64,000 bases of DNA from Terriglobia bacterium. GTDB taxonomy: Bacteria; Acidobacteriota; Terriglobia; Terriglobales; Acidobacteriaceae. The notes under the pieces were generated by a model. The model was not told the DNA's origin, made no database searches, and was given only the letters and a program-made list of their open reading frames with translations. The stretch spans positions 62,001 through 126,000 of the forward strand of contig JAIQGL010000012.1 in assembly GCA_020072585.1 (NCBI GenBank), in the 5' to 3' direction. Position numbers and translations under genes: made by a program. This document shows positions 3,337 through 49,862 of this stretch, in pieces. Position 1 is the first letter of the stretch; every line of letters starts with the position of its first letter.

Positions 3337-3650
3337 CGAATGTTATACGAAGTTAAAGTGAATTTTATCCTATATTCCTGACCCATCTCAAGGTAGGGAA
3401 GCTATCTTCCCAGTGTGAAAACATTTTCCTATTTCCATGGTTCTGCCACCGTCAAAGCCAAAAAGAGAGTCGCCCCACAATCCGTCTTAACAAAGTATTT
3501 CTTGTTTGTTTTCAATAATATAAAAAGATTAAACGTGTGGCTGGCGTATGTCCTTAAGTCCATGACCTTCTGGACACTTTTGGCTCTGAACATGCACTTA
3601 TGAGGGATGCAATCAGCACTGAAATCGCTTGTGGCGTTGATGGAGCTTGC
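3337..3650. other. Intergenic region upstream of the sigma-54 activator
   Basis: AT-rich stretch of 314 bases holding the sigma-54 promoter at 3581-3596. An inverted repeat AACAAA-N10-TTTGTT lies at about 3488-3509 and could be an upstream site. A small hairpin GGGAAG-CTAT-CTTCCC at 3396-3411 lacks a T tract, so I do not call it a terminator. The short ORF at 3415 has no ribosome-binding site or family character. Confidence 0.5.
3581..3596 (+). promoter_or_regulatory. Sigma-54 promoter of the activator gene
   Basis: TGGCTCTGAACATGCA has GG-N10-GC spacing, a TGGC -24 element and a TGCA -12 element. Transcription would begin near 3608, downstream of the possible ATG at 3600, so this site argues for translation from ATG 3651. 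It implies that an activator of sigma-54 is itself sigma-54 dependent, perhaps autoregulated. Confidence 0.6.
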
Positions 3651-4763
3651 ATGAAACACACGGTAGAGCAGAATTTCGACTTGCCCCCCGAGTCGGCTAT
3701 TTTTGGCACCTCTGAGGCAATGAAAAAGGTCCAGCGGGATTTGGCCCTGGTAGCCTCGGCAGACGTGCCGGTGCTCATACAGGGAGGGAGCGGCACAGGC
3801 AAAGAGATCATCGCGAAACTGATTCATCGTGCGTCGCCTCTGGCAAAAGGCCCGTACGTGAAGGTAAATTGTCCTGCGATTCCCGATGCTCTGCTGGAAA
3901 GCGAACTTTTTGGCTATGAAAAAGGCGCATTCACTGGAGCGTACACCTCCAAGCCTGGTTTGATAGCTCTTGCCGATGGCGGCACGCTGTTTCTTGATGA
4001 AATCGGCGAACTGAGCCTGGGATTGCAGTCAAAGCTCCTGCAGGTTTTGCAGGATGGAAAGTTTTCCCGCATCGGCGCCCAGGAAGATACGCGATCAGAA
4101 GCGCGCGTGATCTGCGCCACCAATCGTGATCTGAAGCATGAAATCGCCGCCGGGACCTTCCGTGAAGATCTCTTTTACCGCGTCAACGTGGTCAATATCG
4201 CGCTGCCTTCCCTGAGGGACCGTAGCGCTGACATTCCTGAACTGGTTGAATATTTCCGCGCTCATTTCAACATGATGTACAACCGCAAGGCGGCGCCCTT
4301 GTCTGCGTCGCTCCTGCGTCTGCTACAGGCTTACCACTGGCCGGGTAACATTCGCCAGCTGGAAAATCTCATCAAGCGCTATGTGATTCTGGGGACTGAG
4401 GCTTGTATCAGCGCTGATCTGGCTGAGCCCGCGCCGAACACCTTTGACTTTGAAGTTCCTCAGGACGGCCCCGTGCCTTTGAAGAAGATCACCAACCAGG
4501 CCGTACGCCGCCTGGAGCGGGAGATCATTCTCAAGGTGCTGCAGAGCCACCATTGGAACCGTCGTCGCGCGGCGGAGTCGCTCAAGATCAGCTACCGCGC
4601 ACTCCTGTACAAAATTCGCGATGCCGGCTTGTCGCCGAATCGCGCCAACATAACCAGCATGCCGGCTGAAAGCACCAGTCCGGCCAAACATGAAGAGCGG
4701 GACCCTGAAGAAAACGCTGGACCTGTCGAACTCATGCCTATTGCAAAGGTAAGCAATGCTTAA
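3651..4763 (+). CDS. Sigma-54-dependent transcriptional activator without receiver domain
   Basis: 370 residues from the ATG of MKHTVEQ. This start has GGAG seven bases upstream; an earlier in-frame ATG at 3600 has no such site and would precede the predicted transcript start. Central AAA+ domain: Walker A GGSGTGKE, sigma-54 contact loop GAFTGA, Walker B TLFLDEIGE. A Fis-type helix-turn-helix (NRRRAAESLKISYRALLYKI) is followed by a polar tail of about 45 residues. There is no N-terminal sensory domain, so activity may be set by expression or a partner. The HTH closely resembles that of the response regulator at 35950. It precedes the EPS core and overlaps it by eight bases. Confidence 0.9.
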   Translation: MKHTVEQNFDLPPESAIFGTSEAMKKVQRDLALVASADVPVLIQGGSGTGKEIIAKLIHRASPLAKGPYVKVNCPAIPDALLESELFGYEKGAFTGAYTSKPGLIALADGGTLFLDEIGELSLGLQSKLLQVLQDGKFSRIGAQEDTRSEARVICATNRDLKHEIAAGTFREDLFYRVNVVNIALPSLRDRSADIPELVEYFRAHFNMMYNRKAAPLSASLLRLLQAYHWPGNIRQLENLIKRYVILGTEACISADLAEPAPNTFDFEVPQDGPVPLKKITNQAVRRLEREIILKVLQSHHWNRRRAAESLKISYRALLYKIRDAGLSPNRANITSMPAESTSPAKHEERDPEENAGPVELMPIAKVSNA

Positions 4764-18103: not shown

Positions 18104-19375
18104 TTACCGCTTATTATCTCTTTCCGCCAGCAGATCACGATACAAACTGATTAATTTCTTAATCATCGTTTCTGCGCTAAAACGTGTTTGTGCGGCAATT
18201 CGCCCATTCTGCCCGATCTGAAGTGCACGCTCCGGGTTGCGCAGCAGGAAGAGCAGCCGCTCGGCGGCCGCTCCATCGTCCTCTACCGGAACCATAAAAC
18301 CATTTTCGCCATCCTGGATGGCTTCAGGATTTCCGCCGACGCGCGTCACCACTGAAGGAACGCCACAGGCCATTGCTTCCAGCAGGGCGTTACAGAAGCC
18401 TTCACTGCGGGAAAGTAGACAGAAAGCATTGCTCATCTTGAGCAACGGGACGGGGTCGCCAACAAAATCAAGCAGCTTGACGTTCTTCTCCAGCCCCAGG
18501 GAGCGAATCATCTCCTGCATCTTCCGCGAGTACTCTAGTTCGTAGAGACTGCCCGCGACAACGAACACAGCTCCGGGGAACTCACGGCACACGCGCTGTG
18601 CGGTGCAAATCAAGGTGTCAATGCCTTTGACCCGTCTTATATTCGCCACGCACGTGATGATGTGAGATGCGCCAGCGGCCCATTCGGCAGTTGCAAATGG
18701 ATTTGCCTGCGGACCGGTCGCAATGTGCTGAAGGTCGACTCCGTTGTAGACGACTGAAATTTTCCCCGGATCGATGTGATCGGCGTCAATACAAAACCGT
18801 TTGACCTCTTCCGAGACGGCGAGCACACGGTCTGAGAGCCGGTTCACCACACGATAGGCAAGTTCGTGCTTGCTCTTTCGCAGGATTCCCATGTCCCTGC
18901 GTGAAGAGAGCAGCAGCGCGCCGCTCAGCTTGGCGACCAGGCCACCCCAGAGATTTGAAGTCTCAAAATACGTTTGCACAATATCGACATGCTCATCACG
19001 AATCAGTTTGCGAAGCGCCCCTGCGGCCTTCAGAGCGTCAAGATGGTAGACCCTTTTCCATGGGAAGACATGTACTGGCACAGAAATGTTCTTGCGGATT
19101 TCCGGAGTAATGCGGAAGGTGCCAATTGAGCAGCGAACCAGTTCTGGTGGCATGAGCTGCACAACTTTCAGAAGGTTGGTCTCTCCGCCTCCAAGCGCCA
19201 TTAGATGGTCGATGAGAAAAAGCACGTGGGGCCGGGGCCTGGTCTTGTCGGCGGCCATCTCCTGCGCAGAAGCCTCAGCATTCACAGATGCTGGGCTCTG
19301 GGAGGAGTCCCAAACCTGCGATGAAAATTGTTGCATACCATCCATAAGGTCAGTTGGATACCTGGAAGCCTGCAT
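18104..19375 (-). CDS. Glycosyltransferase family 4 (GT-B)
   Basis: Up to 423 residues. GT-B fold with GGGETNLLKVVQ near the N-terminus and the GT4 signature SRSEGFCNALLEAMACGVPSVVTRVGGNPEAIQDGENG near the C-terminus (the EX7E motif). The first 48 residues are polar and poorly family-like, and the sigma-54 promoter at 19393-19408 places the transcript start only a few bases before ATG 19375, so a later start (ATG 19336 or 19258, the latter with AGGAG adjacent) is possible. Cytoplasmic sugar transfer in EPS repeat assembly; specificity unknown. Confidence 0.87.
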   Translation of the reverse strand: MQASRYPTDLMDGMQQFSSQVWDSSQSPASVNAEASAQEMAADKTRPRPHVLFLIDHLMALGGGETNLLKVVQLMPPELVRCSIGTFRITPEIRKNISVPVHVFPWKRVYHLDALKAAGALRKLIRDEHVDIVQTYFETSNLWGGLVAKLSGALLLSSRRDMGILRKSKHELAYRVVNRLSDRVLAVSEEVKRFCIDADHIDPGKISVVYNGVDLQHIATGPQANPFATAEWAAGASHIITCVANIRRVKGIDTLICTAQRVCREFPGAVFVVAGSLYELEYSRKMQEMIRSLGLEKNVKLLDFVGDPVPLLKMSNAFCLLSRSEGFCNALLEAMACGVPSVVTRVGGNPEAIQDGENGFMVPVEDDGAAAERLLFLLRNPERALQIGQNGRIAAQTRFSAETMIKKLISLYRDLLAERDNKR

Positions 19376-19408: not shown

Positions 19409-19549
19409 TAGGGTAGCTTAAGCCGTTCTTCGTGAGCACAAAGACGATGTCTATTTTTGAGTTTATTTTCAATGTCTTGCAAGGTTTTATTGGCGCCGGA
19501 CTTGTGGGCCGGTTCATCTGCATATGCCAAGAATCTAGGACATTAACAT

Positions 19550-19566
19550 GCAAGGCTTTGCATAGT
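19550..19566. promoter_or_regulatory. Candidate activator-binding element (copy 2)
   Basis: GCAAGGCTTTGCATAGT, an inverted repeat GCAA-N4-TTGC with flanks extended to ATGCAA/TTGCAT. It differs from the element at 200-216 at only two of 17 positions. It lies about 47 bases upstream of the plus promoter at 19613 and about 140 bases upstream of the minus promoter at 19393, both workable enhancer distances. Confidence 0.5.
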
Positions 19567-19612: not shown

Positions 19613-19628
19613 TGGCATCCGCCGTGCA
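19613..19628 (+). promoter_or_regulatory. Sigma-54 promoter for the PEP-CTERM-like microprotein
   Basis: TGGCATCCGCCGTGCA: -24 TGGCA, -12 TGCA, exact GG-N10-GC spacing. It predicts a leader of about 100 bases before ATG 19741. Confidence 0.62.
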
Positions 19629-19740: not shown

Positions 19741-19977
19741 ATGATGAAAAAGTTTGCCTACTCTATTATTGGAATTTTCTTGCTTCTTATTTCTGGGAGC
19801 GCGTTTGTTGGCGCTCTTGAACTTCATGATGTGATCTCTGGCATTCAGCGTTTTGATTCATTTCCTGAATCTGCGTGGCTGATCGTACTAGGTTCACTCC
19901 TGATTTCCGGAGCTACCTTCCTTCGTCGCAGAAGGGCCGCCCGTATCCGTCAGGTCTCTCAAGGAAGGGCAGCATAA
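19741..19977 (+). CDS. 78-residue PEP-CTERM-like microprotein
   Basis: Start chosen at MMKKFAYS, preceded by GGGAG; an upstream in-frame TTG at 19714 lacks a site. Residues 1-25 form a signal peptide (KKFAYSIIGIFLLLISGSAFVGA). Only about 16 residues follow before Pro42-Glu43, a hydrophobic helix (SAWLIVLGSLLISGATFL) and an Arg cluster (RRRRAARIR, from 62). The tripartite tail fits the PEP-CTERM sorting signal read by exosortases. If both ends are processed, the mature product is a peptide of roughly 16-18 residues. It is monocistronic, with its own sigma-54 promoter and terminator. Function unknown; it may be a matrix or anchor peptide. A plain two-helix membrane protein is the alternative. 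Confidence 0.72.
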   Translation: MMKKFAYSIIGIFLLLISGSAFVGALELHDVISGIQRFDSFPESAWLIVLGSLLISGATFLRRRRAARIRQVSQGRAA

Positions 19978-20001: not shown

Positions 20002-20029
20002 ACAAAGCCCTCCTCGCGGAGGGCTTTGT
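20002..20029 (+). terminator. Strong hairpin between convergent genes
   Basis: A perfect 12-base-pair stem (ACAAAGCCCTCC paired with GGAGGGCTTTGT) with loop TCGC, followed by TGTTTCT. It stands 25 bases after the microprotein stop and 28 bases after the 3' end of the kinase gene on the other strand, so it may act in both directions. Confidence 0.85.
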
Positions 20030-20056: not shown

Positions 20057-20995
20057 TTAATTGCCTTCGGCTTTCGCCGCGGTGGTGTAGCGATAGTATC
20101 CATTGTCCGCGGGTTCTTCGGCCCCATTGAATACCACGCCTGCGATTTTGCGAGGATCAATCTGCGCCAGGACCTTCGTCAGTGACTCACGGGCGGTCTT
20201 GCGGGCCCGGGAAACCACCATCACGCTTTCGCACCGGGCCGCAATCAGTTCAAAGTCAGCCAGGTTCAGGGCCGGAGGTGAGTCAACCAGCACCAGGCGG
20301 AAGGATTCTGCCGCCCAACCCATAAACTCCTTCCAGCGGGGCCCGGAAAACAGCTCTGAGGGCGATGCGGCAGTTTCTCCTGCCGGCAGAACGTAGAGGC
20401 TTGGCACGTCAGTACGCAGTACAGCGGATTGATAAGAACAATCCTTTTCCAGGATCTCGGCCAGCCCAGCCGACTCAGGATCGCCTGCCAGATTTGAGAG
20501 CCCGCGTGTGCGCAGGTCGGCGTCCACCATCAGCACCGGCCAGTTTTCGATCTTGGCGTAGCACAGCGCAAGATTGAAAGTGGTGAGCGTCTTGCCTTCG
20601 CCCTGCGTGGAACTGGTTACCACCATGGAGCGTGCTCCGCTCCGCGTCTGCTGTTTAACCAGACGCGTGCGTAACGTGCGATATGCCTCCACCGCTGCCT
20701 GCATCGTTGGATTGTACTGTGACACAAGAAACGATCTTTCTTCTGTACGGGGCAGGCGAATGCTGCGGCAGTTCTCCAGGCGCCCCGCCGCAACCTGAGT
20801 CGCAACTTCATGCGACTCTTTGAGCGGCTGCAGCAACTGATCCAGGTCCCTTTCGCCGGAATGCGTGGCAGAGGAGCCGTTGCTCTCCATGCTTTGCTTG
20901 AGTGAGCCGACAAGTTCCTGGATATCAACATTGGCCGTTGCCGGAACGGGGTTGATCTTCTGTGCGCTGCGCGTTTCGTTAAAAAATTTGCTCAT
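20057..20995 (-). CDS. CpsD/BY-kinase of exosortase-type EPS locus
   Basis: 312 residues. Bacterial tyrosine autokinase domain with Walker A SSTQGEGKT (128-136) and Walker A' VLMVDADLR (154-162), and a C-terminal tyrosine cluster YYRY close to the end that would be the autophosphorylation site. It is cytoplasmic and should work with the separate Wzz-like protein at 8375-9916 to control EPS polymerisation. The N-terminal 80 residues are low in family character. It lies 52 bases downstream of the partner ATPase and probably shares its sigma-54 promoter. A cognate phosphatase domain is encoded at 22140-23894. Confidence 0.92.
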   Translation of the reverse strand: MSKFFNETRSAQKINPVPATANVDIQELVGSLKQSMESNGSSATHSGERDLDQLLQPLKESHEVATQVAAGRLENCRSIRLPRTEERSFLVSQYNPTMQAAVEAYRTLRTRLVKQQTRSGARSMVVTSSTQGEGKTLTTFNLALCYAKIENWPVLMVDADLRTRGLSNLAGDPESAGLAEILEKDCSYQSAVLRTDVPSLYVLPAGETAASPSELFSGPRWKEFMGWAAESFRLVLVDSPPALNLADFELIAARCESVMVVSRARKTARESLTKVLAQIDPRKIAGVVFNGAEEPADNGYYRYTTAAKAEGN

Positions 20996-21047: not shown

Positions 21048-21938
21048 CTAAGAACCTGTTTGTGCCAGCCCGGTCATGGGGCTTGCATTATTGTCCAGTG
21101 TTCCTGAAGAAAGCTGCATTAATCCCATTTCTTCCGCAGCTTCAATCACAAGGTCGGCGCCGATTTTTCTCATTTGACGTCTGAAGCCGATGGCCAGCGC
21201 GTGGTCACAAATCGAGTTGATCAGCCGCGGTACTCCATTCGTGAGCTTGTGTATCTCTTCCAGCGCCGGTGTGTTGAAAGGGCTTTCGCCGCGCAATCCG
21301 GCAACATGCATCCGCTCCGCAATGTAAGCCCTGGACTCCATCAAAGTGAGTGCGCGCAGTTTGGTGACTACGGAAATACGCTGCCGCAATGCCGCCAGTT
21401 CCGGCTTCATCAACAGCGGTAAAAGCTCCGGCTGGCCGCTCAGAATGATCTGCAGTACGTTCACCGGATAGTTGTCAAGATTCATCAGGAGCCGGATTTC
21501 TTCAATCAGCTCCGGCGGCATCAAATGGGCTTCATCAATAATGATCACGACCGCACTGTTGCTCTTATGCGATGACAGCAGTAGTTCGTGCAGCGCGCGT
21601 AAACGGGCCGGCTTGGTGGGTGCAGATGCATGAATCTCAAGCTCATCAAATAAAGATTCAAAAAGTTCATCCGTCGTCAGTGTAGGGTTCACCACAAAGG
21701 CGGTACGCAGCGGACGCTCCGCCGTGGCTTCATGCGACAGGATGTGCTGCAGGCAGTAAAGCAGGGTCGTCTTGCCGGTACCAATGGGCCCAATGGCAAC
21801 TTGCAGACCCTTGCGACCGGCAACACCTTCCACCATGGCGCGCAGCGTATTTCTGTGCGGCTCCGCCAGATGAAGAAATCGAGGATCCGGCGTCAGACGG
21901 AACGGATCTTGTTTTAAGCCATAAAAACTTGAATACAT
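21048..21938 (-). CDS. Exosortase-system AAA ATPase (ExeA-like)
   Basis: 296 residues from the ATG of MYSSFYGLKQDPFRLTPDPRFL, the usual start of this family; the 34 codons before it lie in the promoter leader. Walker A GPIGTGKTTLL, Walker B VVIIIDEAH, sensor region FSGQPEL-like (ILSGQPELLPLL). The family (AAA_22, ExeA/GspA-related) is a constant companion of the BY-kinase in PEP-CTERM EPS loci; its exact role in assembly is unknown. First gene of a two-gene minus-strand operon with the kinase. Confidence 0.92.
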   Translation of the reverse strand: MYSSFYGLKQDPFRLTPDPRFLHLAEPHRNTLRAMVEGVAGRKGLQVAIGPIGTGKTTLLYCLQHILSHEATAERPLRTAFVVNPTLTTDELFESLFDELEIHASAPTKPARLRALHELLLSSHKSNSAVVIIIDEAHLMPPELIEEIRLLMNLDNYPVNVLQIILSGQPELLPLLMKPELAALRQRISVVTKLRALTLMESRAYIAERMHVAGLRGESPFNTPALEEIHKLTNGVPRLINSICDHALAIGFRRQMRKIGADLVIEAAEEMGLMQLSSGTLDNNASPMTGLAQTGS

Positions 21939-21990
21939 GCGTAACCTATTCAGGAACCCTGCTCTAGTGACAGGGAAGCACCTATGTATT

Positions 21991-22006
21991 GGCAAGTGGG
22001 GGGCCA
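21991..22006 (-). promoter_or_regulatory. Sigma-54 promoter for the ATPase/kinase operon
   Basis: Minus-strand TGGCCCCCCACTTGCC: TGGC, TTGC and exact GG-N10-GC spacing. Predicted leader about 42 bases to ATG 21938. A TGTGCAA word lies 79 bases upstream (22085-22091), resembling TTGCACA words near the promoters at 1044 and 25149. Confidence 0.7.
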
Positions 22007-22139
22007 AATTATATGAACTAATATCTTTTATAATCAACAACTTAACTAAAGTTATGCGAAGTCTGTAGGGTTAATTTTTTTATGTGTGCAACATATTTCA
22101 CAATTTGCGCGTGAATTTTCCTTCATCGCAGGAATGTTG

Positions 22140-23894
22140 CTATCGGCCACTGGTAGCAGCGGAAGGAACCCTTGATGTGTAGCTTGTGGCGGCCTTGCTG
22201 TTAGCGATCCAAAGCGCCAGGCCGTCAACACCTGACCGCACCTGTTCGGCGATCTTATGGGTGACGGCCTCTTCGGCGAGATAAGGGTCGGCGATCTCAA
22301 CAGCGGGCTGGCTTCCAAAAAGTCCCAGCAAGGTTGTGTACGCCTCTATCTCCGGGAATTCGCCCTTGAGGCACTTGAGGTTCTCCATATCCATTGCCAC
22401 CACCAGATCGGCGCTTGTCAGCATTTCACGCGTAACGCGCGCCGAACGATGACCTGAGAGATCAAGCCCGAATGAGCTGCCAATACGCAGCATCTTCTCT
22501 GGAGAGTTTCTGCCGATACTTGCATGAAAGCCGGCGGATTCGATTACGATACCGCTGATTCGCTGTTCCGCGAGCTTGGCCGCCAGGGGGCTGCGACAGA
22601 TATTCCCATAGCAAAGGAAAACAATCTTACGGGGGCCGCCCGCGGCCGCCAGACGTTGCAGCAGGGAATGATGGTGCCGCAAGAGCCGCCGCCGAGTTTG
22701 CCAGTTCTGGAATTTGCGGTAGATGGGCCGCAGCTGGTCAGTTATAGCAAGAGCTACGGCGCGTCGTGTGATGCCCAAATCGCGCCAATCAAAGTGGTCC
22801 CAGCTTTCACGTCCTGTAAGCGGCCGCAGAAGTTCCAGAAACGAGCCTGCGCGTGGTCTGGTATGGAGCAGTGGGTCCTGCGGATCTGCTCGTAGATTGC
22901 TTTTGAGCCAGTCTGCATCTGTACGTAAATCACGAGTGTAGTAGTGAACTTTGTAGTCCGGCTGCGGAGGCGGCTGTTGTCCGCGCGCAATCCGCAGCAG
23001 CCCATTGGGGAAATCAACGCCCGCATCGATGGAGAGCGCCAGCGACCCCCACAGGCGCGGATTAATTTCCATCAGCCAATACTGGCCTTTGCCGTCCATT
23101 TTGAATTCAACCATGGCTACGCCATGCCACTTGAGAGCGGTCAGAAGCTTCTCTGCATCGCGCAGCAAGCCGGCAGGCGGGGCAATCGACCGGCGATACG
23201 AACTTGCTCCGCCGGAAAGCGGATACTCGTGCACGCGTTCGTGGGCAAAATGCCAGATTTTCTGCCCGCGGTCGAAAAGAAATTCTGCTCCCACGCCACG
23301 CCCAGAAACGTATTGTTGCTGCTGCACCGGAGTCAGCGGAAGCCAGCGCCGCAACTGTTCCTGGCGCTGTGCTTCAGTTTTCACCACAGCCACGGCAAGC
23401 GTGCGCAGTTCGCCAACGACCGTCACTTTGCTATGTGTGGGCTTAAGAACAACCGGGAATTGCTCAACCTGCCCGATCTCTGACAGCGACGACAGCAAAA
23501 CACCGCCCGGCGCCGGTACGCCCAATTCGCGCGCCAGTTGCCAGGTCTTCTCTTTGTCCAGGGCGATATCCAGCGCGGCATTTCCGGGAATTACGGCTTT
23601 GCGGCGAAGAGGGTCGCTTTCATCCAGACGGCGCAGCATCAGCAGAGACGTTTCGGTGGCCGGGACGATTAACGCATAATTGCGCTGTTTGTCTTCCGCC
23701 CGCAGCCATGCATGAAAATCTGCCGTTTGAGAAGGCTGCTGTAGTTTTCGTGCGGCATAGCGCGAGTGCATTGCCAGGCAATCTTTTGCTTCGGCTGCCA
23801 GATCTATCTGCAAACCCGCGCGCCCCAGGCTCTGCAGGGTCTCCAGCGCTGCCCGGCTATGTCCGTCAAGGACCAATACAGTCATTTTGCTCAT
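22140..23894 (-). CDS. ATP-grasp ligase fused to low-molecular-weight tyrosine phosphatase
   Basis: 584 residues from the ATG that overlaps the upstream stop (ATGA); an earlier start at 23918 would overlap that gene by more. Residues 1-360 form an ATP-grasp enzyme: a pre-ATP-grasp Rossmann part (TVLVLDGHSRAALETLQSLGRAG), PVVLKPTHSK, and the Mg/ATP site WLMEINPRLWGS (about 274-284). After a basic linker, residues from about 422 form a LMW-PTP: P-loop CYGNICRS (Cys428, Arg434) and general acid Asp536 in DPYL. LMW-PTPs such as Wzb dephosphorylate BY-kinases, and one is encoded close by. The carboxylate ligated by the first domain is unknown. Both active sites look intact. Confidence 0.88.
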   Translation of the reverse strand: MSKMTVLVLDGHSRAALETLQSLGRAGLQIDLAAEAKDCLAMHSRYAARKLQQPSQTADFHAWLRAEDKQRNYALIVPATETSLLMLRRLDESDPLRRKAVIPGNAALDIALDKEKTWQLARELGVPAPGGVLLSSLSEIGQVEQFPVVLKPTHSKVTVVGELRTLAVAVVKTEAQRQEQLRRWLPLTPVQQQQYVSGRGVGAEFLFDRGQKIWHFAHERVHEYPLSGGASSYRRSIAPPAGLLRDAEKLLTALKWHGVAMVEFKMDGKGQYWLMEINPRLWGSLALSIDAGVDFPNGLLRIARGQQPPPQPDYKVHYYTRDLRTDADWLKSNLRADPQDPLLHTRPRAGSFLELLRPLTGRESWDHFDWRDLGITRRAVALAITDQLRPIYRKFQNWQTRRRLLRHHHSLLQRLAAAGGPRKIVFLCYGNICRSPLAAKLAEQRISGIVIESAGFHASIGRNSPEKMLRIGSSFGLDLSGHRSARVTREMLTSADLVVAMDMENLKCLKGEFPEIEAYTTLLGLFGSQPAVEIADPYLAEEAVTHKIAEQVRSGVDGLALWIANSKAATSYTSRVPSAATSGR

Positions 23895-24829
23895 GCTTCC
23901 GGCCGGTGCAGCCGCCACGCTGTTAACGCCGCATTTTCAGCGCTGGGAATGCGTGGCAACCGGTGGAGTTCCAGGCTGTCCCGCCGGTCTATTACGCCGC
24001 TCTCCGTGGTTACCGCCGCACGATATATCTTCTTTACTGCTTGATACGCCCGTGCGTCGTAGGATCCGTTCGGATAGCAAAAAAACTCTACTGGCCGCTT
24101 CAGCCGCTGCTCAAGGCAATGCCGGCTTTCCAGCAACTCAAATTCGATTTCCTCCGCAGAGAGGGTGGTCAGAATCGGATGGCTCATTGTATGCGATCCA
24201 ACCGTAATAAGGCCGGAATCAAGCGAAAGCAGATCCTCCCAATTCATCATGTCAAAAGCGGTCTGCTGGGCGGGCGTGGCCTGGAAGTCCGGAGTGGCCT
24301 GTCTTATGATTTGCTCGGCTTCACGGCGTTGCGGCAGGTGCAGTGTCTTCATCCATTCGACGATTCCTTCCACCGAGTTGCCGGGCGCAAGAAGTCTTGT
24401 GCGTAGCTCAGCCAAAGCAGGCGCAGCCAGAGTCTGAAGACGGCATCGCACTTCGTGGTTCCAGAGCCATGTTCCTGCTTCAATCAGTCCCGGACACACA
24501 AAGAATGTAGCCGGCACTTGTAACTGAAGCAAAACCGGATACACAACAGACAGGTTGTTGCGCAGCCCATCGTCGAAGGTCAAAGCAATCGCATTCGCTC
24601 CAGGGGCAGAACCATTTCCGAGTCGATGAACCATTTCTTCCAACGGTACGATCTTGAAATGCCTGGTAAGAAAGCGCAGCTGCGCTGCCAGCGCCTGGGC
24701 TCCTTCCGGAACAATACCGTGATACATCAGGATTCGCCCGCAGTCCTGCCGCCGCGCCATGGCGGCCGAGAATCCGCAATGGAACGAGATCGTGTGCCCG
24801 AATGACTTTAATTCAGCTGAAACTGACAA
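23891..24829 (-). CDS. Polysaccharide deacetylase (NodB domain)
   Basis: 312 residues. RILMYHGIVPEGA near the start, NodB motif ALTFDDGLRNN, second motif GSHTMSHPI, FFCYPNGSYD. It lacks a signal peptide. First gene of a minus-strand pair with the ATP-grasp/phosphatase fusion, driven by the sigma-54 promoter at 24912-24927 (leader of about 70 bases). Predicted to deacetylate a glycan intermediate; substrate unknown. Confidence 0.86.
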   Translation of the reverse strand: MSVSAELKSFGHTISFHCGFSAAMARRQDCGRILMYHGIVPEGAQALAAQLRFLTRHFKIVPLEEMVHRLGNGSAPGANAIALTFDDGLRNNLSVVYPVLLQLQVPATFFVCPGLIEAGTWLWNHEVRCRLQTLAAPALAELRTRLLAPGNSVEGIVEWMKTLHLPQRREAEQIIRQATPDFQATPAQQTAFDMMNWEDLLSLDSGLITVGSHTMSHPILTTLSAEEIEFELLESRHCLEQRLKRPVEFFCYPNGSYDARAYQAVKKIYRAAVTTESGVIDRRDSLELHRLPRIPSAENAALTAWRLHRPEA

Positions 24830-24927: not shown

Positions 24928-25148
24928 TTTGGGCGCTCAGATCGGGGTATAGACCTATGGAGTAGAATATGGATTAACGTATTGCTTGCAATGAGTTAGG
25001 GATAGAACAGCTAAAATAGGCTGGATTTGCACTCGCCAAAAGACAAAGAGATTGCCCAATCTGTGCAATATTTTTCATCCCAACTGAACTAATTCAGTTG
25101 TCATCATTCTAAGTCATTGAAAATACAGGTTTTTCAATAACAATTTAA

Positions 25149-25164
25149 CGGCAGCAGCGTTGCA
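25149..25164 (+). promoter_or_regulatory. Sigma-54 promoter for the deacetylase/GT operon
   Basis: CGGCAGCAGCGTTGCA: GGCA and perfect TTGCA with GG-N10-GC spacing; only the first T of the -24 element is replaced by C. Expected leader about 55 bases to the TTG start at 25232. Confidence 0.6.
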
Positions 25165-35017: not shown

Positions 35018-35953
35018 ATGGACAAAGAATTCGCTAATACGGCCGGGGTGGAATGCCCGGTGTGTCACTGCACACTCCAGTCGCGGCTTCACATATGCCA
35101 ATGCGATAGGAACGAACCCCAGAAAAAAGTAGTGGAGGTCGTGCCGCCTGAGCGGCGCCGGCGTCAGCTGCGGTGCGGCCACGAAGAAGTGGAGCCATCG
35201 GCATTCCCACTAGTATCAGCAGCGCATGAGTTCAAAACTCCGCTGGTGGTCATGCTTGGATACACCGATCTCTTGTTAAGCGGACATCTTGGCGTTGTCA
35301 ATCAGAGACAGAAGCAGGTGCTGGGAGAGATACAAGAAGGCGCCCAGCGTTTACAAAAATTGATCCAGGATCTTCTTCTGCTCCAGGAACTTAAGGCAGG
35401 ACGTGGAGTGGCGGAGAACCTTGAATCCGCTGCCGTGAATGAAAGTATTAGCGAGATTTTCAACTACTGGTCACCAACCGCTACACAGAAACGGATAAGG
35501 TACCAGTTGCGTCCCTCTTCCGGTGCACAAAGAGTGCGGGTTGAGCCTCTGAAGCTGCAGCATGTCGTATCCAGTCTGATCGAAAACGCGCTGAAGCATA
35601 CTCCGGCGCACGGACTGGTGATTGTTAGCGTGACTACCTGCTTCTGGGAGAGGCGCAAAGCGCAGGCCGAATTCTTATTCAACATGGAACGAAAGGAAAA
35701 CCACAAGACGGACAACGCTGTCCGCATTGACGTAAGCGACACCGGGCCGGGCATTCCGGCCGAGCACCATGACGAAATCTTTGGAGACTTTGTGCAACTG
35801 CCTGGCGGGTCCGCCCGCGGCACCGGGTTGGGACTGGCCATAGCCCGGCGTCTGGTAGAGGCACACGGTGGAGTGATCTGGGTGGAAAGCGAGCCCGGAA
35901 AAGGAAGCAAGTTTTCAGTTGTATTGCCCCAGGCTAATCAGGAGGCCAAGTGA
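35018..35953 (+). CDS. Soluble histidine kinase with N-terminal Cys cluster
   Basis: 311 residues, AGGAG before the ATG. Residues 11-55 hold CPVCHC, CQC and CGH (Cys13, 16, 18, 27, 29, 53), a likely zinc or iron-sulfur site. HisKA box [16 protein letters not shown] places the phospho-acceptor at His70; N box ENALKH, G1 DTGPGIP and G2 [11 protein letters not shown] complete the ATPase domain. No membrane segment or PAS/GAF domain, so it is cytosolic and may sense redox or metal state. GTGA overlap with the sigma-54 response regulator defines the two-component pair. Confidence 0.9.
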
Positions 35954-37383
35954 CAAGCGCGCCAAACATACTTCTCGTCGACGACGAACCAAGTGTCCTT
36001 CGTTATACCAAGACATTGCTCGAAATTGATAACTATCACGTGGAAACAGCAGGTAGCGGGGAAGAAGCGTTGCAGCGCATGAACCGCGGACCTGCGCCGA
36101 ACCTGATTGTGCTTGACCTGGTGATGCCCGGCATGGACGGCCTGCAGACCCTGGAAAGCTGCAAGAAACTCCGTCCTGAACAGAAGGTTGTGATGATCTC
36201 CTGTGTGAATGACACGAATAAGGTTGTGCAGGCGATCAGATTGGGCGCTTCCGATTATGTTACCAAGCCATTTCTTCCGCCGCAGTTGCAGGGCGCAGTG
36301 CGCCGGGCCCTGGGTTCCACTCTTCTGGCCAAAGGGCCTGAAGCAGGCCAGTTGGTCAAGGGCGCCGAGATGGTGGACGAGCTTGACGACGATCTTTTCT
36401 TTTTGGCGGCGAGTCCTGCAATGAAGCAGATTCGAGCGCAGGTAGCGCTTATCGCCAAGGTAAACGTTCCCGTTCTTCTTCTGGGCGAAAGTGGTGTGGG
36501 CAAGGAAATAGTGTCACGCCTTATTCACAAGATGTCCGTCCGCGCTCACCGTTCCATGGTGAAAGTGAATTGCGCCGCGTTGCCTGCCGACCTGCTGGAA
36601 AGCGAGCTTTTTGGCTACGATGCCGGCGCCTTCACTGGCGCAAGCAAGTCCAAGCCGGGAAAATTTGAACTGGCCCATAAAGGCACGATTCTGCTGGATG
36701 AAATCGGCGAGATGAGCGCGGGGCTCCAAGCCAAGTTATTGCATGTGCTTCAGGATGGCACGTTCTCCCGCCTGGGTGGCCGGGCCAATGTAACCGTGGA
36801 TGCGCGGGTGCTGGCGGCAACCAACATTGATGTGAAGAAGGCGATCGCCGAACGCAGACTGCGCGAGGACCTTTACTATCGCCTGAATGCTTTTACCATC
36901 ACGGTGCCTCCGTTGCGTGAGCGGCGTGAAGAAATCCCGGTTCTGCTCCGCTACTACATGAACAAGATGGCGCACCAGTTTGGAAAAAATGCGCCACCTA
37001 TTTCGGAAAAGCTGACCCAGGAGTGCCTCCGTTACCACTGGCCCGGCAACCTGCGCGAGTTGAATAACTTTGTAAAGCGCTATCTGGTGCTGGAAGATGA
37101 AAACATGCTGGTTGACGAACTCCAGAACAAGGCCAAAGAGGGAAGCACTGATAACGGCACAACATCTTCCGGGCACGGTGGATTGAAGGCCCTGGTCCGC
37201 AATTTGAAGGATGACGCAGAGGCCAAGGAAATCCAGCGGGCATTGGATGACTCGAACTGGAACCGCAAAGTGGCGGCTGCCGAGTTGAACATCAGCTATA
37301 AAGCATTGCTGTACAAGATCAAGCAGCACGGCTTGTCACCGGCAGGCAACCGCGAGTTCGGCCTGCGCGCGAAAGCCAATTAA
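35950..37383 (+). CDS. Sigma-54-dependent response regulator (NtrC/PrsR-like)
   Basis: 477 residues, GTG start. Receiver domain [12 protein letters not shown] with phospho-acceptor Asp56 in [11 protein letters not shown] and the conserved Lys in YVTKPF; AAA+ domain with Walker A GESGVGKE and GAFTGA loop; Fis-type [23 protein letters not shown]. The HTH is very close to that of the activator at 3651, so both may bind the same DNA element. Cognate kinase is the coupled upstream gene. In PEP-CTERM systems the PrsK/PrsR pair plays this role; here the kinase is soluble, unlike PrsK. Confidence 0.93.
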
Positions 37384-40307: not shown

Positions 40308-40429
40308 CCTGTCAGGTCTCCGTCATTAATACGGTACAACAAAGCAGCGGTGAAAGCGGAAATCCAGACTGAAATTGACTTCAGGTGGTCAGGTAGCTAG
40401 GCTGGGCGAATGCTGTGGGAGCAAGACAG

Positions 40430-41560
40430 ATGAACGGCAGCGGACAGGAGTCCGGGGTCTCCGCGGTGGTGCTTGCGGCTGGAATGTCGCGCCGTATGGG
40501 TACGCCCAAACAGCTGCTTCGCATCGGCGGAGAGACGATCCTGGAGCGCACGCTCAGAAACGTTCGGTCGTCCTCGGTCCAGGAAATTGTTCTGGTGCTC
40601 GGGTTTGCCGCGGAAAGCGTGGAGAAAGAGATCACTACCGAGCGCGTGAAGGTCGTGCATAACAAAGACTATCAGCAGGGCATGGGCACATCACTGCGTG
40701 CCGGGCTTGCGGCGGTGGCCCCCCAGGCGAGCGCGGCGTTGATCGTGCTGGCGGACCAACCTTTTGTCCGCCCGGAGACGTTGAACAGTTTGATCGCCTG
40801 CCACCAGGAGTCAAAGCCGCAAATCATCATTCCGATGTACAGGGGCTTTCGCGGGAATCCGGTGCTGCTGGATCGCTCCGTATTTCCAGAGCTGAAAGAA
40901 CTGAATGGCGACGTTGGCTGCCGGGCGATCTTTGGCAGCCATACTGAAAACATCTGCAAGCTGGCAGTGGATGACCTCGGCATTCTTCTGGATATTGATA
41001 GCCCGGAGGAATATCAAAAACTCGAGAAAGCTTACAAAGCGCGGAGTGAGGCGGTCGGTACGGAGAGTGCGACGTTGGAAAGCAGGGGAACCCTGCCTCC
41101 CGGACGCGCGGAGTTGGTTGTAGCAGGCCGTGATGCCGTTGCCCTTGCATTGGTGAGATTCGGCCGTCTTTTAAACTTCACGGTAACGATTGTTGATCCG
41201 TTGCTGACATTGGCTGAGGTGCAGGACGCAGACCGAATCCTGCGCGAGCTTGATTTTCGATTGCTGCCGCCGGATGGCGAACGCTATGTAGTGGTCGCAA
41301 GCCGGGGACAATTTGATGAAGAAGCAGTTGAGCAGGCATTGCACGTGGATGTTCCTTACGTCGCACTGCTGGCCAATAAGAAGCGAGCGGAAGAGATTGT
41401 ACGGAGCCTCAAAGCGAAATTGTGTCCGGCCGACAAGCTGGCAGCAATACGCGCCCCCGCAGGGCTCGACATTGGCGCTGAAAGTCCGGAAGAAATTGCG
41501 TTGAGCATCATGGCGGAGATTGTCGCGAAGCGGCACAGCAAGGGAGAAGAAAGCACATGA
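40430..41560 (+). CDS. MocA-like nucleotidyltransferase fused to an XdhC Rossmann domain
   Basis: 376 residues from the ATG of MNGSGQE, with GGAG eight bases upstream; a GTG at 40415 is an alternative. Residues to about 200 form a MobA-like nucleotidyltransferase (VVLAAGMSRRMGTPKQLL, LADQPFVRPETL, YRGFRGNPVLL), the molybdopterin cytidylyltransferase type. The C-terminal part from about 220 is the Rossmann half of XdhC (AELVVAGRDAVALALVRFGRLLNF, RAPAGLDIGAESPEEIALSIMAEI). It would convert Mo-MPT to the cytosine dinucleotide cofactor and pass it to the CO dehydrogenase encoded nearby. Confidence 0.87.
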   Translation: MNGSGQESGVSAVVLAAGMSRRMGTPKQLLRIGGETILERTLRNVRSSSVQEIVLVLGFAAESVEKEITTERVKVVHNKDYQQGMGTSLRAGLAAVAPQASAALIVLADQPFVRPETLNSLIACHQESKPQIIIPMYRGFRGNPVLLDRSVFPELKELNGDVGCRAIFGSHTENICKLAVDDLGILLDIDSPEEYQKLEKAYKARSEAVGTESATLESRGTLPPGRAELVVAGRDAVALALVRFGRLLNFTVTIVDPLLTLAEVQDADRILRELDFRLLPPDGERYVVVASRGQFDEEAVEQALHVDVPYVALLANKKRAEEIVRSLKAKLCPADKLAAIRAPAGLDIGAESPEEIALSIMAEIVAKRHSKGEEST

Positions 41561-42300
41561 GAATTCGTTGGGCGCGGAATGTTTTTTGTCTTTGTTTGAG
41601 CATCCTTGCCCTCTGCGCTGCCTGCTTCGGGCAGAAAAAAGCGGATGAATGGGCCATCAGCAACGCAATGATTGGCCCTGACTCGCCCATCGAGGTTCGC
41701 GCCGGGAGCTCTTATCATGCGCAGGCGATGTACCCGGTGCCGGATGGGCCGTTATTCCCGTTGAAGGCAACTGTTGCGTGGTCCATTGCGCCGGCTGTTA
41801 AAGGAATTTCCGTCGATGCGAAATCTGGGAAGATCAGCGTGGATGCGGACGTGAAGCATGGCGCAACCACGACCGTCCATGCGGATGTCTCAGGTGGACG
41901 GCGCAAGTTAATAGCTAAACTCTATGTGTTCAGACCGGAAGAAAATCCATTGATCGGCAAATGGCGTGTTGATCAAAAGGTCGCTTGCGGTGAAGCGCAG
42001 GAACTGAAGACGGCCACTTCTACTCCTCGCTCCCTCTACACAATGGACTGGAACTTTCATGTTGACCAGCAGTTCTGGGTAGGCAGGACAAATAATATTG
42101 CGGCTGGAGTAAGGCGTAGCGGGACCTATGAATTCGACCTGAAAACAGCCACGATCACGCTCGCCACCAAGTGGCCGGCAACAACACCAGTCTCCAGTTG
42201 GAGCTTTTTGCTAAAAGATGACGGAAAAACACTGCTGCTACGTCCCTCAGCGCCTGAAAATAATCTGGAACCGGGATGCAGTTATGTATTGCGCCGTTAA
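41557..42300 (+). CDS. Secreted hypothetical protein
   Basis: 247 residues, coupled by ATGA to the MocA-XdhC gene. Signal peptide ending near CAACFGQ (not a standard lipobox). The mature part has a Big-2-like beta segment (VAWSIAPAVKGISVDAKSGKISVDAD) and a C-terminal lipocalin-like beta region (LIGKWRVDQKV, WSFLLKDDGKTLLLRPS). I cannot name a function. Confidence 0.65.
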   Translation: MRIRWARNVFCLCLSILALCAACFGQKKADEWAISNAMIGPDSPIEVRAGSSYHAQAMYPVPDGPLFPLKATVAWSIAPAVKGISVDAKSGKISVDADVKHGATTTVHADVSGGRRKLIAKLYVFRPEENPLIGKWRVDQKVACGEAQELKTATSTPRSLYTMDWNFHVDQQFWVGRTNNIAAGVRRSGTYEFDLKTATITLATKWPATTPVSSWSFLLKDDGKTLLLRPSAPENNLEPGCSYVLRR

Positions 42301-42308
42301 GACACTCA

Positions 42309-43163
42309 TTATTTAAGATCGCATTGCCGAATGACTTTATCAGTCGCTGCAACTTCCTTGCGCGTGGGTTCAACCTCAATCCTTTGCCTGGCTTGTTTCA
42401 GCGCTACAGCGCTTCCGCCGCGTTTCACGGCCACGATCTGACTCATGATGCTAAGAGCAATTTCTTCTGGACCGGCAGCTCCAAGATCGAGCCCGGCGGG
42501 GGCCCAGACGCGCTCGACTTTTTCCGGCGCAACGCCCTCGGCCAGCAGGTAGTCCAGCACCAGGTGTGAGCGATGCGCGCTGGCGATGAGCGCAACATAG
42601 GCTGCTTCACCTTCCAGGGCCTTTTGCAGCCAGAGGTGATCGTTCTTGTGCAGCGTGGCAATCACAACATAGGTACTCGGACTGAACGAGATTTCGGCGA
42701 CATCGAAGTCTTTGTCGATGATGCGATGCGCGTCAGGGAAGTTTTCTCGTGCGGCGGATGGATCATGCACGGTCACGGCGAAATTCATCAGATGCCCAAG
42801 ACGCGCCAGTGTTTCTGCAATCCGTCCGTGACCGGCAATGACCAGCCCAGGCTGGGGCAGTACGGGCTCAATGTAGACGTCCATCATTCCTCCGCAGGGC
42901 ATGCCCACGCCCAGGATTTCATCCTGCATGTCCAGCGTAATGAGTTCCGGCTTTTCTGAACGGATGCAGCGCAGCGCCTCACTGCGGACCGCGCTCTCCG
43001 CGCAGCCGCCGCCCACCCATCCCATCACCACCCTGCCTTGCGAATCGATCAGCGCTTTGGAGCCGCGCCGCGCCGAAGACGAGCCTTCCACGCGGACGAC
43101 TGTGGCAATGGCAAATGGCCTGCGCTGGGCCGCGAGTTCCGCCGCTTTGGAATAGAGCTCCAT
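42309..43163 (-). CDS. XdhC family molybdenum-cofactor insertion factor
   Basis: 284 residues from the ATG of MELYSKA. N-terminal XdhC/CoxI domain (FAIATVVRVEGSSSARRGSKALIDSQGRVVMGWVGGGCAESAV) and C-terminal Rossmann domain (GLVIAGHGRIAETLARLGHLMNF, WAPAGLDLGAAGPEEIALSIMSQIVA). XdhC proteins bind and hand over sulfurated Mo cofactor. Divergent from coxM across 187 bases. Confidence 0.88.
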   Translation of the reverse strand: MELYSKAAELAAQRRPFAIATVVRVEGSSSARRGSKALIDSQGRVVMGWVGGGCAESAVRSEALRCIRSEKPELITLDMQDEILGVGMPCGGMMDVYIEPVLPQPGLVIAGHGRIAETLARLGHLMNFAVTVHDPSAARENFPDAHRIIDKDFDVAEISFSPSTYVVIATLHKNDHLWLQKALEGEAAYVALIASAHRSHLVLDYLLAEGVAPEKVERVWAPAGLDLGAAGPEEIALSIMSQIVAVKRGGSAVALKQARQRIEVEPTRKEVAATDKVIRQCDLK

Positions 43164-43350
43164 CCTGTACCGCCTTACGCGTATCATATTCTTTAGCGTC
43201 TTGGGAGTTCAACGCCGACCAGGTTGCGGCGACCTCCAGCCGCCAGCGACTTTCCCCTGTCCCGTTCGCTGTGGTATAAGGGACGCCTCTCCGAATAGCG
43301 TCCCGAGCTGTTCGTCGCTATCGATATTTTGATGTTGAAAGAGGTGGACC

Positions 43351-44220
43351 ATGATCCCGCCAGCTTTCGAATATCTCCGGCCCAAGACCGTCCCAGAAGC
43401 CGTGGCCCTGTTGCAACAACATGGAGACGACGCCAAGATCCTGAGCGGCGGACAGAGTCTCATACCCATGATGAAGCTGCGCCTGGCGCGGCCCAGCCAT
43501 TTGATTGACATCAATCGAATTTCCGGGCTTGCCTATATCAAAGAGGACGGCGGCTTCCTGAAAATTGGCGGTCTCACGCGCGAAGCGGAGCTGGAAGGAT
43601 CCGACGTGGTGCGGGCCAAGTATCCGCTGCTGCTCGACACGGCGACGGTGATCGCTGATCCGCAGGTGCGAAATTTGGCAACGGTCGGCGGCAACCTTGC
43701 CCATGGCGATCCCGCAAACGATCACCCGGCCACCATGCTGGCGTTGGGAGTGCAGATTGTCGCTACCGGAGCTAAGGGCGCGAGAGTGATTGCAATCGAC
43801 GATTTCTTTGTCTCGCTGTTCACCACGTCCCTGCAGCACGACGAGATTCTCACGGAGATTCGTATTCCCAGCCCTCCACCGCGGAGCGGTGGAGCTTACG
43901 TCAAGCTGGAGCGTAAAGTCGGGGATTTTGCCACTGCCGCAGTGGCGGTCCAGCTCACATTGGACGATAAAGGCGCGGTGCAGAAGGCAGGGATTGGGTT
44001 GACTAACGTCGGTGCGACGCCTATCCGGGCTAAGAGCGCTGAAGACGCGCTGCGTGGCAAAAAGCTGGATGCGGCGACGATCGGGCAGGCAGCACAGCTC
44101 GCGGCGGACGCAGCACAGCCCGGCTCTGACCTGCGCGGGCCGGCGGAATACAAGAAAGGTCTCATCAAAGAGCTCACCAAACGTGCGCTCACCCGCGCCG
44201 CGGAGCGGGCGGGCAAATAG
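43351..44220 (+). CDS. coxM: Aerobic CO dehydrogenase medium (FAD) subunit
   Basis: 289 residues, AGAGG before the ATG. FAD-binding motifs [14 protein letters not shown] and [17 protein letters not shown], followed by the CO-dehydrogenase flavoprotein C-terminal domain. It takes electrons from the Fe-S subunit. First gene of the cox operon. Confidence 0.92.
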
Positions 44221-44255
44221 CAGCTCCCAAAAAGACAGATGGAGGGCAAGGCGCG

Positions 44256-44741
44256 ATGGCGAAGAAGGAACTGATCAAGCTCAAAATCAACGGCAAGGAG
44301 CGCGAGGCTGCGGCAGAGCCCAGGCTGTTGCTGGTGCACTTTATCCGTGAAGCGCTGGGGCTGACGGGGACGCACGTCGGCTGCGACACAAGCAACTGCG
44401 GCGCCTGTACCGTGATCATGAACGGGAAAACCGTGAAGTCGTGCACCGTGTTCGCGGTCCAGGCAGATGGCGCCGAGGTCATGACGGTGGAAGGCCTGCT
44501 CCAGAACGGCGCGCTCCATCCCTTGCAGGAAGGATTCAAAGAGGAGCACGGGCTGCAATGCGGCTTCTGTACGCCAGGAATGCTGATGTCAACGTATGCA
44601 TTGCTGCAGAAGAATCCGCAGCCGAGTGAAGAGCAGATACGCTGGGGAATCTCCGGCAATCTTTGCCGCTGTACCGGGTATCAAAATATTGTTAAGGCCG
44701 TGCAATTCGCCTCCAAAAAGATGGCGCAAGGAGGTAAGTAA
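44256..44741 (+). CDS. coxS: Aerobic CO dehydrogenase small (2Fe-2S) subunit
   Basis: 161 residues. Plant-type 2Fe-2S cysteines Cys43, 48, 51 and 63 ([10 protein letters not shown]) and the second cluster set Cys102, 105, 137 and 139 (CGFC, CRC). All eight ligands are present. One-base overlap (TAATG) with the large subunit. Confidence 0.93.
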
Positions 44742-47092: not shown

Positions 47093-47093
47093 C

Positions 47094-47735
47094 ATGGCAG
47101 TAAAGATTGAAAAGACGTTCCGGGTGGATCAGCCGACAGACAAAGTCTGGGCTTTTTTGAGCGATCCCAGGAAGGTTGGCGCATGCGTGCCCGGAGCGGA
47201 GATCACGGAGCAGGTGGACGAGCGCACTTACAAGGGCGCAATCAAGGTGAAAGTGGGGCCAAGCGTTACTGACTATAAGGGCGAAGTCCAGATCGTGCGG
47301 CTGGACCAGGCGTTGCATGAGATTGAAATCCTGGGCAAAGGCCAGGATGTGAGAGGCAAAGGAAGCGCGTCCATGAAGATGACAGGCAAGGTGCATGCAC
47401 TTGACAGCGGGAGTGAGGTCACCAGCATCTCTGAACTCAATGTTGTGGGTATACTGGCACAGATGGGCTCGCGAGTGATCAGCGAAGTCTCAAACGTTAT
47501 GTTTGAGCAATTTCTAAACAACTTTCGCAAGCAGCTCCAGTCACCGGACGCAGCGATTGGAGAGACAAGCACTGCCACTGCAAAGCCGATCAGCGCAGTG
47601 GGAGTAGCGTTTTCGGCTTTGAAGGCAACTTTTACCAGGCATTCAAGCAGCGAAGAAGCTAAAGCCGACCTGGCCAAATCCGATTCAGCGCCGCCCGTTC
47701 CGGACAAACCTAAAGACGATTCCGGCGGCAAGTGA
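47094..47735 (+). CDS. coxG: CoxG family SRPBCC membrane-recruitment protein
   Basis: 213 residues. SRPBCC fold (VDQPTDKVWAFLSDPRKVGACVPGAEI, GKGSASMKMTGKVHAL) with a C-terminal hydrophobic/charged tail from about 150. CoxG helps tether CO dehydrogenase to the membrane. It starts one base after the coxL stop. Confidence 0.9.
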   Translation: MAVKIEKTFRVDQPTDKVWAFLSDPRKVGACVPGAEITEQVDERTYKGAIKVKVGPSVTDYKGEVQIVRLDQALHEIEILGKGQDVRGKGSASMKMTGKVHALDSGSEVTSISELNVVGILAQMGSRVISEVSNVMFEQFLNNFRKQLQSPDAAIGETSTATAKPISAVGVAFSALKATFTRHSSSEEAKADLAKSDSAPPVPDKPKDDSGGK

Positions 47736-48643
47736 TGCCGTCCCCGACTCTCCCAAAAGGCAAGACGATCCACGATCCGGGTGGGCTGGCAAGCAGCTTT
47801 GAGCAGCTTGGTTACATCACTGATCCCGCGCTCGCTACGGCGATTTTTCTAGCGGTGAATCTCGCCAAGCCGTTGTTGCTGGAAGGTCACGCGGGGCTGG
47901 GCAAGACGGAGGTCGCAAAGGTCCTGGCGCAGTTTCTGGGCACTCGGCTGATCCGGCTGCAATGTTATGAGGGGCTCGACGTGAATTCCGCGGTCTACGA
48001 GTGGAACTACCAGAAGCAGCTCCTTGCCATTAAGATTGAGGAGCGGACCGGCCTATCGGTCGAGGAAAAAGAGAAGCATATCTTCAGCCGCGATTTTCTG
48101 ATGGAACGCCCGCTGCTGCAGGCGATCCAGGAAGCAGAGTCTTCACCGGTGCTGCTTGTGGACGAGGTTGACCGCGCCGATGAAGCGTTTGAAGCGTTTC
48201 TGCTGGAACTGCTATCGGACTATCAGATCAGCATTCCGGAGCTGGGAACGATCAAAGCCAGGCATCTGCCACTGGTGATTCTCACATCGAACCGCAGCCG
48301 CGAACTGGGCGACGCTCTCAAACGCCGCTGCCTCTACCACTGGATCGACTATCCCAGCCTGGAAAAAGAGATGAAGATTGTGGCGGCACGGCTGCCGGGA
48401 ATCGCGGAAGAGTTAGAACGGCAAATTGTAACGTTTGTGCAGGCGGTGCGGCGGCTGAACCTGATGAAGGCCCCCGGCGTGGCGGAGACGCTGGACTGGG
48501 CCCGGGCGCTCAAGTCCCTGGGAAAGACCAGTCTGGACACCGGATCGGTGGAAGATACGCTCGGCTGTCTTTCCAAATCCATGGAAGACTCGGCAAAGAT
48601 CAAGGCTGCCGGGATTGAGACAATGCTGACGGAAGTTGGTTGA
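47735..48643 (+). CDS. coxD: CoxD MoxR-type AAA+ ATPase
   Basis: 302 residues from ATG 47735, overlapping the coxG stop; a GTG three bases earlier is possible. Walker A GHAGLGKTEVAK, Walker B VLLVDEVDRAD, arginine-rich sensor LTSNRSRELGDALKRRCLYHWIDYP. CoxD is needed for assembling the sulfur- and copper-containing active site. Confidence 0.9.
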   Translation: MPSPTLPKGKTIHDPGGLASSFEQLGYITDPALATAIFLAVNLAKPLLLEGHAGLGKTEVAKVLAQFLGTRLIRLQCYEGLDVNSAVYEWNYQKQLLAIKIEERTGLSVEEKEKHIFSRDFLMERPLLQAIQEAESSPVLLVDEVDRADEAFEAFLLELLSDYQISIPELGTIKARHLPLVILTSNRSRELGDALKRRCLYHWIDYPSLEKEMKIVAARLPGIAEELERQIVTFVQAVRRLNLMKAPGVAETLDWARALKSLGKTSLDTGSVEDTLGCLSKSMEDSAKIKAAGIETMLTEVG

Positions 48644-48645
48644 GT

Positions 48646-49791: not shown

Positions 49792-49862
49792 GGTGCGGCT
49801 GCGCCGCCAGAAGCATCCGGCAACGGCTGAACGGCTTTTTAAGAAGTAACATAAGCAGGACA

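Follow-up and report, generated by a model that had tools for sequence, protein, structure and literature searches.

How a protein made of little else than sorting signals could serve exopolysaccharide (EPS) production, and what would read its tail, are the questions raised by a short gene in the window, the 64,000-nucleotide stretch of DNA analysed here. PEP-CTERM proteins are generally held to depend on an exosortase, and most of them have a sizeable domain for display at the surface. The product of this gene has almost no mature domain at all, and its genome has no detected exosortase.

A short, conserved gene

The open reading frame at 19741-19977 (+ strand) begins with the ATG at 19741 or with an alternative Met codon at 19744, and its 78-residue product reads MMKKFAYSIIGIFLLLISGSAFVGALELHDVISGIQRFDSFPESAWLIVLGSLLISGATFLRRRRAARIRQVSQGRAA. 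Residues 1-25 (19741-19815, +) form a putative Sec signal peptide, recognized by eye, in the orthologue alignment and as a predicted helix; the hydrophobic N-terminus ends in AFVGA/LE and, as judged by eye, the predicted cut falls after Gly-Ala (VGA/LE). A 16-residue middle, LELHDVISGIQRFDSF, follows (residues 26-41; 19816-19863, +) and is partly conserved in the alignment. Residues 41-65 (19861-19935, +) constitute the PEP-CTERM-like tail, with FPES, a hydrophobic helix and RRRR, as delineated by alignment, dN/dS and a family model; in this part Pro-Glu precedes a hydrophobic stretch of 18 residues, after which comes RRRRAARIR. This is the anatomy given in the preliminary description, and the sequence bears it out, as it does the view that the product consists almost wholly of export and tail signals; the context of Pro-Glu is FPES, not PEP. 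AlphaFold, run on the single sequence, predicts two helices (residues 2-39 and 43-76; mean pLDDT 77.5).

Orthologues were sought in 300 genomes of the family with the single protein as query. Three strong matches were obtained, all in the same genus, for which nine genomes were sampled, the window's own (G000) included. Identity to the window's microprotein is 80% in G106, 76% in G170 and 57% in G211. In all three the gene occupies the same place in the same EPS locus, between a tyrosine autokinase and a GT4 glycosyltransferase; EPS loci of relatives were the places in which the preliminary description had proposed to look for it. Among the four orthologues full-length dN/dS amounts to 0.10-0.27, indicative of purifying selection. 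The tail is the best-conserved part (0.03-0.11, with dS of about 1-2 in five of the six pairs). Constraint is weaker in the middle, at 0.11-0.56 for pairs with a finite dS, and values for the signal peptide vary from 0.15 to 1.17. Conservation of the middle, proposed earlier as a check, is partial, with five residues that are invariant in the four orthologues (L26, E27, H29, F38 and F41). Ala stands at position -1 of the predicted signal-peptide site in all four. The loss of the tail in homologues had been named as one of two observations that would speak against the assignment; the helix and the Arg tail are kept throughout, Pro-Glu in three of the four, and Pro-Glu-Pro occurs in none, the exception G211 having His-Glu through replacement of Pro by His. 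The open reading frame is a real, conserved gene.

Other matches in the family were weak. Four of them, located within 10 kb of an exosortase, belong to neighbourhoods of ordinary large PEP-CTERM proteins, and a single match in Verrucomicrobia, from a scan of named genomes, was judged to be due to chance. Inspection of 25 other family loci for short PEP-CTERM-like open reading frames beside the ATPase gave one implausible frame only; the larger neighbourhoods of G015 and G063 contained large PEP-CTERM proteins only, and that of G018 none.

The EPS locus and its control elements

The window contains an XrtA-type EPS cluster. Two models exceed their curated cut-offs, namely TIGR03013 (4756-6147) and TIGR03006 (25232-26197, +), the latter corresponding to the XrtA system polysaccharide deacetylase. 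Several XrtA/PEP-CTERM models match below cut-off, among others those for the ATPase (TIGR03015; homologue at 21048-22040, -), the chain-length protein, the export protein, the tyrosine kinase and the amidotransferase. The link to EPS suggested in the preliminary description is thereby substantiated, the microprotein gene lying inside this locus and at the same place in three relatives. Its downstream neighbour, which is convergent, encodes an XrtA-type tyrosine autokinase (20057-20995, -; TIGR03018 below cut-off, TIGR01007 passed) and keeps its place in the orthologous loci; the upstream neighbour, a GT4 glycosyltransferase gene (18104-19375, -), lies on the opposite strand. This gene layout fits the monocistronic unit described earlier. 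Two genes from the autokinase, 22140-23918 encodes a 592-residue protein, also conserved in the orthologous loci, which combines an ATP-grasp/carbamoyl-phosphate-synthase-like region (about 47-320) with a Wzb-like low-molecular-weight tyrosine phosphatase region (about 431-549).

Three elements frame the microprotein gene. A predicted sigma-54 -24/-12 element, TGGCATCCGCCGTGCA (19613-19628, +), has no mismatch to the pattern drawn from the orthologues. Upstream of it, the inverted repeat TGCAAGGCTTTGCA (19549-19562, +), a candidate activator site, is kept in all four genomes that have the gene. Downstream, the predicted intrinsic terminator (20002-20029, +), with a 12-pair stem and a T-rich tail, is kept in the four orthologues, and in G170 both sides of the stem have changed, from CCCTCC/GGAGGG to CCCTTC/GAAGGG. 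Promoter and repeat were combined in the composite pattern TGCA-N5-TTGCA, 35-65 bases, TGGCA-N7-TGC. It matches once per genome in the four gene-bearing genomes, always just upstream of the microprotein gene; there is no match in the other five genomes of the genus and none in a control with the reversed pattern. Since the pattern was derived at these loci, it is bound to occur there; that it has a single match per genome does not follow from its derivation. As judged from sequence conservation, none of the three elements is a product of chance, and the promoter, the activator site and the 12-bp terminator of the preliminary description all stand as predicted features.

Ahead of the deacetylase gene, on the + strand (25064-25164 overall), stand a repeat of similar kind (25064-25077) and an element resembling -24/-12 (CGGCAGCAGCGTTGCA, 25149-25164); both are also present in G106 and G170. 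Because both genes are preceded by such elements, the microprotein gene and the deacetylase operon probably belong to one regulon. Two products are candidates for the activator. One is the response regulator at 35950-37383, part of a histidine kinase and sigma-54 response regulator pair (35018-37383, +); it is PEP_resp_reg-like (TIGR02915), scoring 351 bits with the cut-off of 502.6 not reached, and its PrsR-type likeness is by architecture only. The other, an alternative candidate for the repeat on the basis of profile matches and locus comparison, is a second sigma-54-dependent activator (3600-4763, +).

Such an arrangement has precedents. The PEP-CTERM genes described together with EpsH/XrtA (PMC1569441) share with the microprotein gene a single-gene unit, a long upstream region, a sigma-54 promoter and an upstream activator-like motif, and their products share with it the tripartite tail, the putative signal peptide and the XrtA-type EPS locus. 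The upstream motif pair was reported for Proteobacteria only, and its motif 1 ends in TTTACA, whereas the repeat found here reads TGCAAGNNTTTGCA (PMC1569441). In Aquincola, the EPS-linked PEP-CTERM gene pepA depends on RpoN, and its sigma-54 promoter has been mapped (PMC9850573). It resembles the microprotein gene in the promoter, mapped for pepA and predicted here, and in the link to EPS, but its product is larger, is involved in floc formation and comes from a host described with a PEP-CTERM/exosortase system (PMC9850573).

The class of the tail

The C-terminus of the microprotein has the tripartite order of a sorting tail: motif, hydrophobic helix and basic cluster. General models do not assign it to the PEP-CTERM class. 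On TIGR02595 the window's protein scores 12.4 bits and its orthologues 12.6, 12.5 and 13.7 bits, all below the cut-off of 16, and the Pfam PEP-CTERM model reported no match for the window's protein; the comparison with PEP-CTERM models called for in the preliminary description has therefore yielded no hit over cut-off, an outcome on the side of refutation, unlike that for the homologues. The LPXTG anchor model TIGR01167 (cut-off 15.9) is passed by the window's protein (18.7 bits) and by two orthologues (18.5 and 18.8 bits) and failed by G211 (12.6 bits). This cross-match is not surprising, because the PEP-CTERM and LPXTG logos have their tripartite build in common (PMC1569441). An LPxTG or LPxTA motif is absent, the tails reading FPESA or, in G211, FHESG.

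A more specific answer comes from a model built on nine PEP-CTERM tails of exosortase-linked proteins from the same family; that these tails were picked by pattern limits its weight. The four orthologue tails score 17.0, 17.2, 13.7 and 15.2 bits. In a scan of 8,594 six-frame segments (595 kb) the four orthologues come immediately after the training set, with 13.0-17.0 bits, and no other non-training segment exceeds 7.4 bits. When the tail or the helix of the G000 and G211 proteins is shuffled, no more than 1 in 1000 shuffles attains the original score. The likeness sits in the helix, LGSLLxxGATFLRRR, and goes beyond mere hydrophobicity and arginines.

The claim of a PEP-CTERM-like tail is thus upheld by the family-specific model (13-17 bits versus 7.4) and not by the general ones (12.4 of 16 bits). 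The designation 'PEP-CTERM-like' holds at the level of sequence, because the family-specific scores lie above those of all other non-training segments. The tail class is not beyond doubt, because the LPXTG anchor model scores above the general PEP-CTERM model. Compared with PEP-CTERM proteins (TIGR02595), the microprotein has FPES for PEP, a score below cut-off and hardly any mature domain. Since this score falls short and the exosortase that such proteins call for was not detected in its genome, it is not classed as a member, and may still work like one.

Candidate readers of the tail

With a probability of about one half, the gene encodes a PEP-CTERM-derived microprotein, co-regulated with EPS synthesis, whose tail is a recognition helix and not a mere anchor. 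According to this proposal, the gene would be transcribed by sigma-54 RNA polymerase while EPS is made, with the help of an activator that binds the upstream repeat, and the XrtA-type deacetylase operon would probably be turned on at the same time. The product would be exported by Sec and its signal peptide removed after Gly-Ala. The remainder would comprise a 16-residue periplasmic segment, which holds the invariant Glu, His and two Phe, a single inner-membrane helix and a cytosolic Arg cluster. A partner within the EPS machinery, or some processing enzyme, would then read the tail. That something probably reads the tail sequence follows from its near-invariance at a level of divergence where silent sites are near saturation. 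An EPS partner or another enzyme is a more likely reader than a canonical exosortase, because none is detectable in the genome. Enzymes unrelated to exosortases do read tripartite tails, as in the case of myxosortase (PMC11980579) and rhombosortase (PMC3237569); unlike MYXO-CTERM and GlyGly-CTERM proteins, the microprotein has neither their signature Cys nor their Gly-Gly motif.

The closest competitor, possible but clearly less probable than recognition by an EPS partner or another enzyme, is a true exosortase substrate, in which an undetected divergent enzyme would cut in the Pro-Glu region and link the 16 residues to a lipid or a glycan, which would give the EPS matrix a tiny anchored peptide. 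The conserved, PEP-CTERM-like character of the tail speaks for it. Exosortases exceed the PF09721 cut-off in 114 of 200 family genomes. Within the genus only G050 does so, and by a narrow margin (29.7 bits). The window's own genome, 96.8% complete, gave no exosortase with PF09721 at E values up to 10 and nothing convincing with the divergent G050 enzyme as query; HMM and signature searches of its complete EPS contig, and of the portions retrieved from the G106 and G170 contigs, likewise gave none. Together with the loss of Pro in G211, one of the four orthologues, these searches weaken the exosortase-substrate reading, so that the lipid-linked peptide, matrix primer or sorting decoy of the preliminary description stands as a conjecture. 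With the G050 query a single further exosortase turned up in the genus, that of G153 (55% identity); the remaining seven genomes gave no convincing match. Both enzymes (L107:15671-16708 in G050, L153:3485-4513 in G153) exceed the TIGR04178 cut-off of 23, with 42.1 and 40.9 bits, respectively, and their catalytic Cys, Arg and His are in register with those of canonical exosortases. PF09721 is blind to the G153 enzyme, so a further divergent exosortase could escape in the same way and its absence from the window's own genome is unproven. In both G050 and G153 a conserved long secreted-type protein adjoins the divergent exosortase.

These two genomes also encode one short protein each, of 82-83 residues, whose N-terminus resembles a signal peptide and whose tail reads LPEAG (G050) or LPESG (G153); its gene is flanked by those of an FAD oxidoreductase and of the TIGR03006 deacetylase. 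The short protein and the divergent exosortase co-occur in exactly the same two of the nine genomes, a coincidence with a chance of 1 in 36 for independent genomes, which they are not; this pairing counts in favour of the exosortase-substrate reading. In G050 some 60 kb of a single contig separate their genes, which in G153 lie on different contigs. The LPESG/LPEAG tails reach no more than 2.8 and 5.1 bits on the family PEP-CTERM model. Common descent with the protein encoded in the window (type A) is not claimed, because the alignment covers the tail only (hhalign, 85%). A broader and still more tentative idea is that EPS-linked, nearly all-signal microproteins are dedicated substrates of divergent exosortases, which would place a peptide of about 16 to 33 residues on the envelope or matrix; the pairing is by co-occurrence in G050 and G153, and an unseen counterpart would have to exist in the window's genome.

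It is rather unlikely that the product is an ordinary small membrane protein that keeps its N-terminal helix, forms a two-helix hairpin and regulates an EPS enzyme, for instance the tyrosine kinase encoded next to it or the chain-length protein, its sorting-tail likeness being convergent. The two helices predicted by AlphaFold, an unchanged position next to the kinase gene in all four genomes and the failure to find an exosortase are consistent with such a hairpin, but the helix-specific likeness to family PEP-CTERM tails, far above background and shuffles, and the conserved signal-peptidase-like Gly-Ala site argue against it.

Recognition by a class-D-like sortase, with FPESA read as an LPxTA/LPxTG-type signal, is improbable. 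The tripartite build and the LPXTG_anchor model, passed by three of the four orthologues, recall LPXTG/sortase substrates (TIGR01167), and the window's genome has two PF04203 sortases. However, the canonical Leu and Thr are missing, G211 fails the model, neither sortase is on the EPS contig, and no sortase was found with PF04203 in G153, which carries a similar microprotein. On contig C43 of the window's genome (L141:7683-10045) a sortase gene stands beside that of a protein ending in LPQTASPLPLLGLLGFGSVFTAFALRGFRKGH, whose own LPQTA tail suggests a dedicated substrate. That the gene is a decaying relic of a PEP-CTERM protein after exosortase loss, as the frequency of exosortases in the family, their rarity in the genus and the lost Pro of G211 might suggest, is very improbable and largely refuted by full-length dN/dS well below 1 in every comparison, by selection that is strongest in the tail and by the conserved promoter, activator site and terminator.

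A conserved and specifically regulated protein that is nearly all signal, its tail most constrained in a genome where no exosortase is detectable, sets tail recognition apart from cargo delivery and can serve as a minimal system in which to find out what reads such a tail. The genus itself allows a natural comparison, some of its genomes having a divergent exosortase and the others none that is detectable. Elsewhere in the window, 40415-50867 resembles, by eye only, a molybdenum hydroxylase cluster, with CoxL/CoxM-like, CoxG-like, AAA ATPase, VWA-type and XdhC-type proteins and a MobA-like/XdhC-like fusion.
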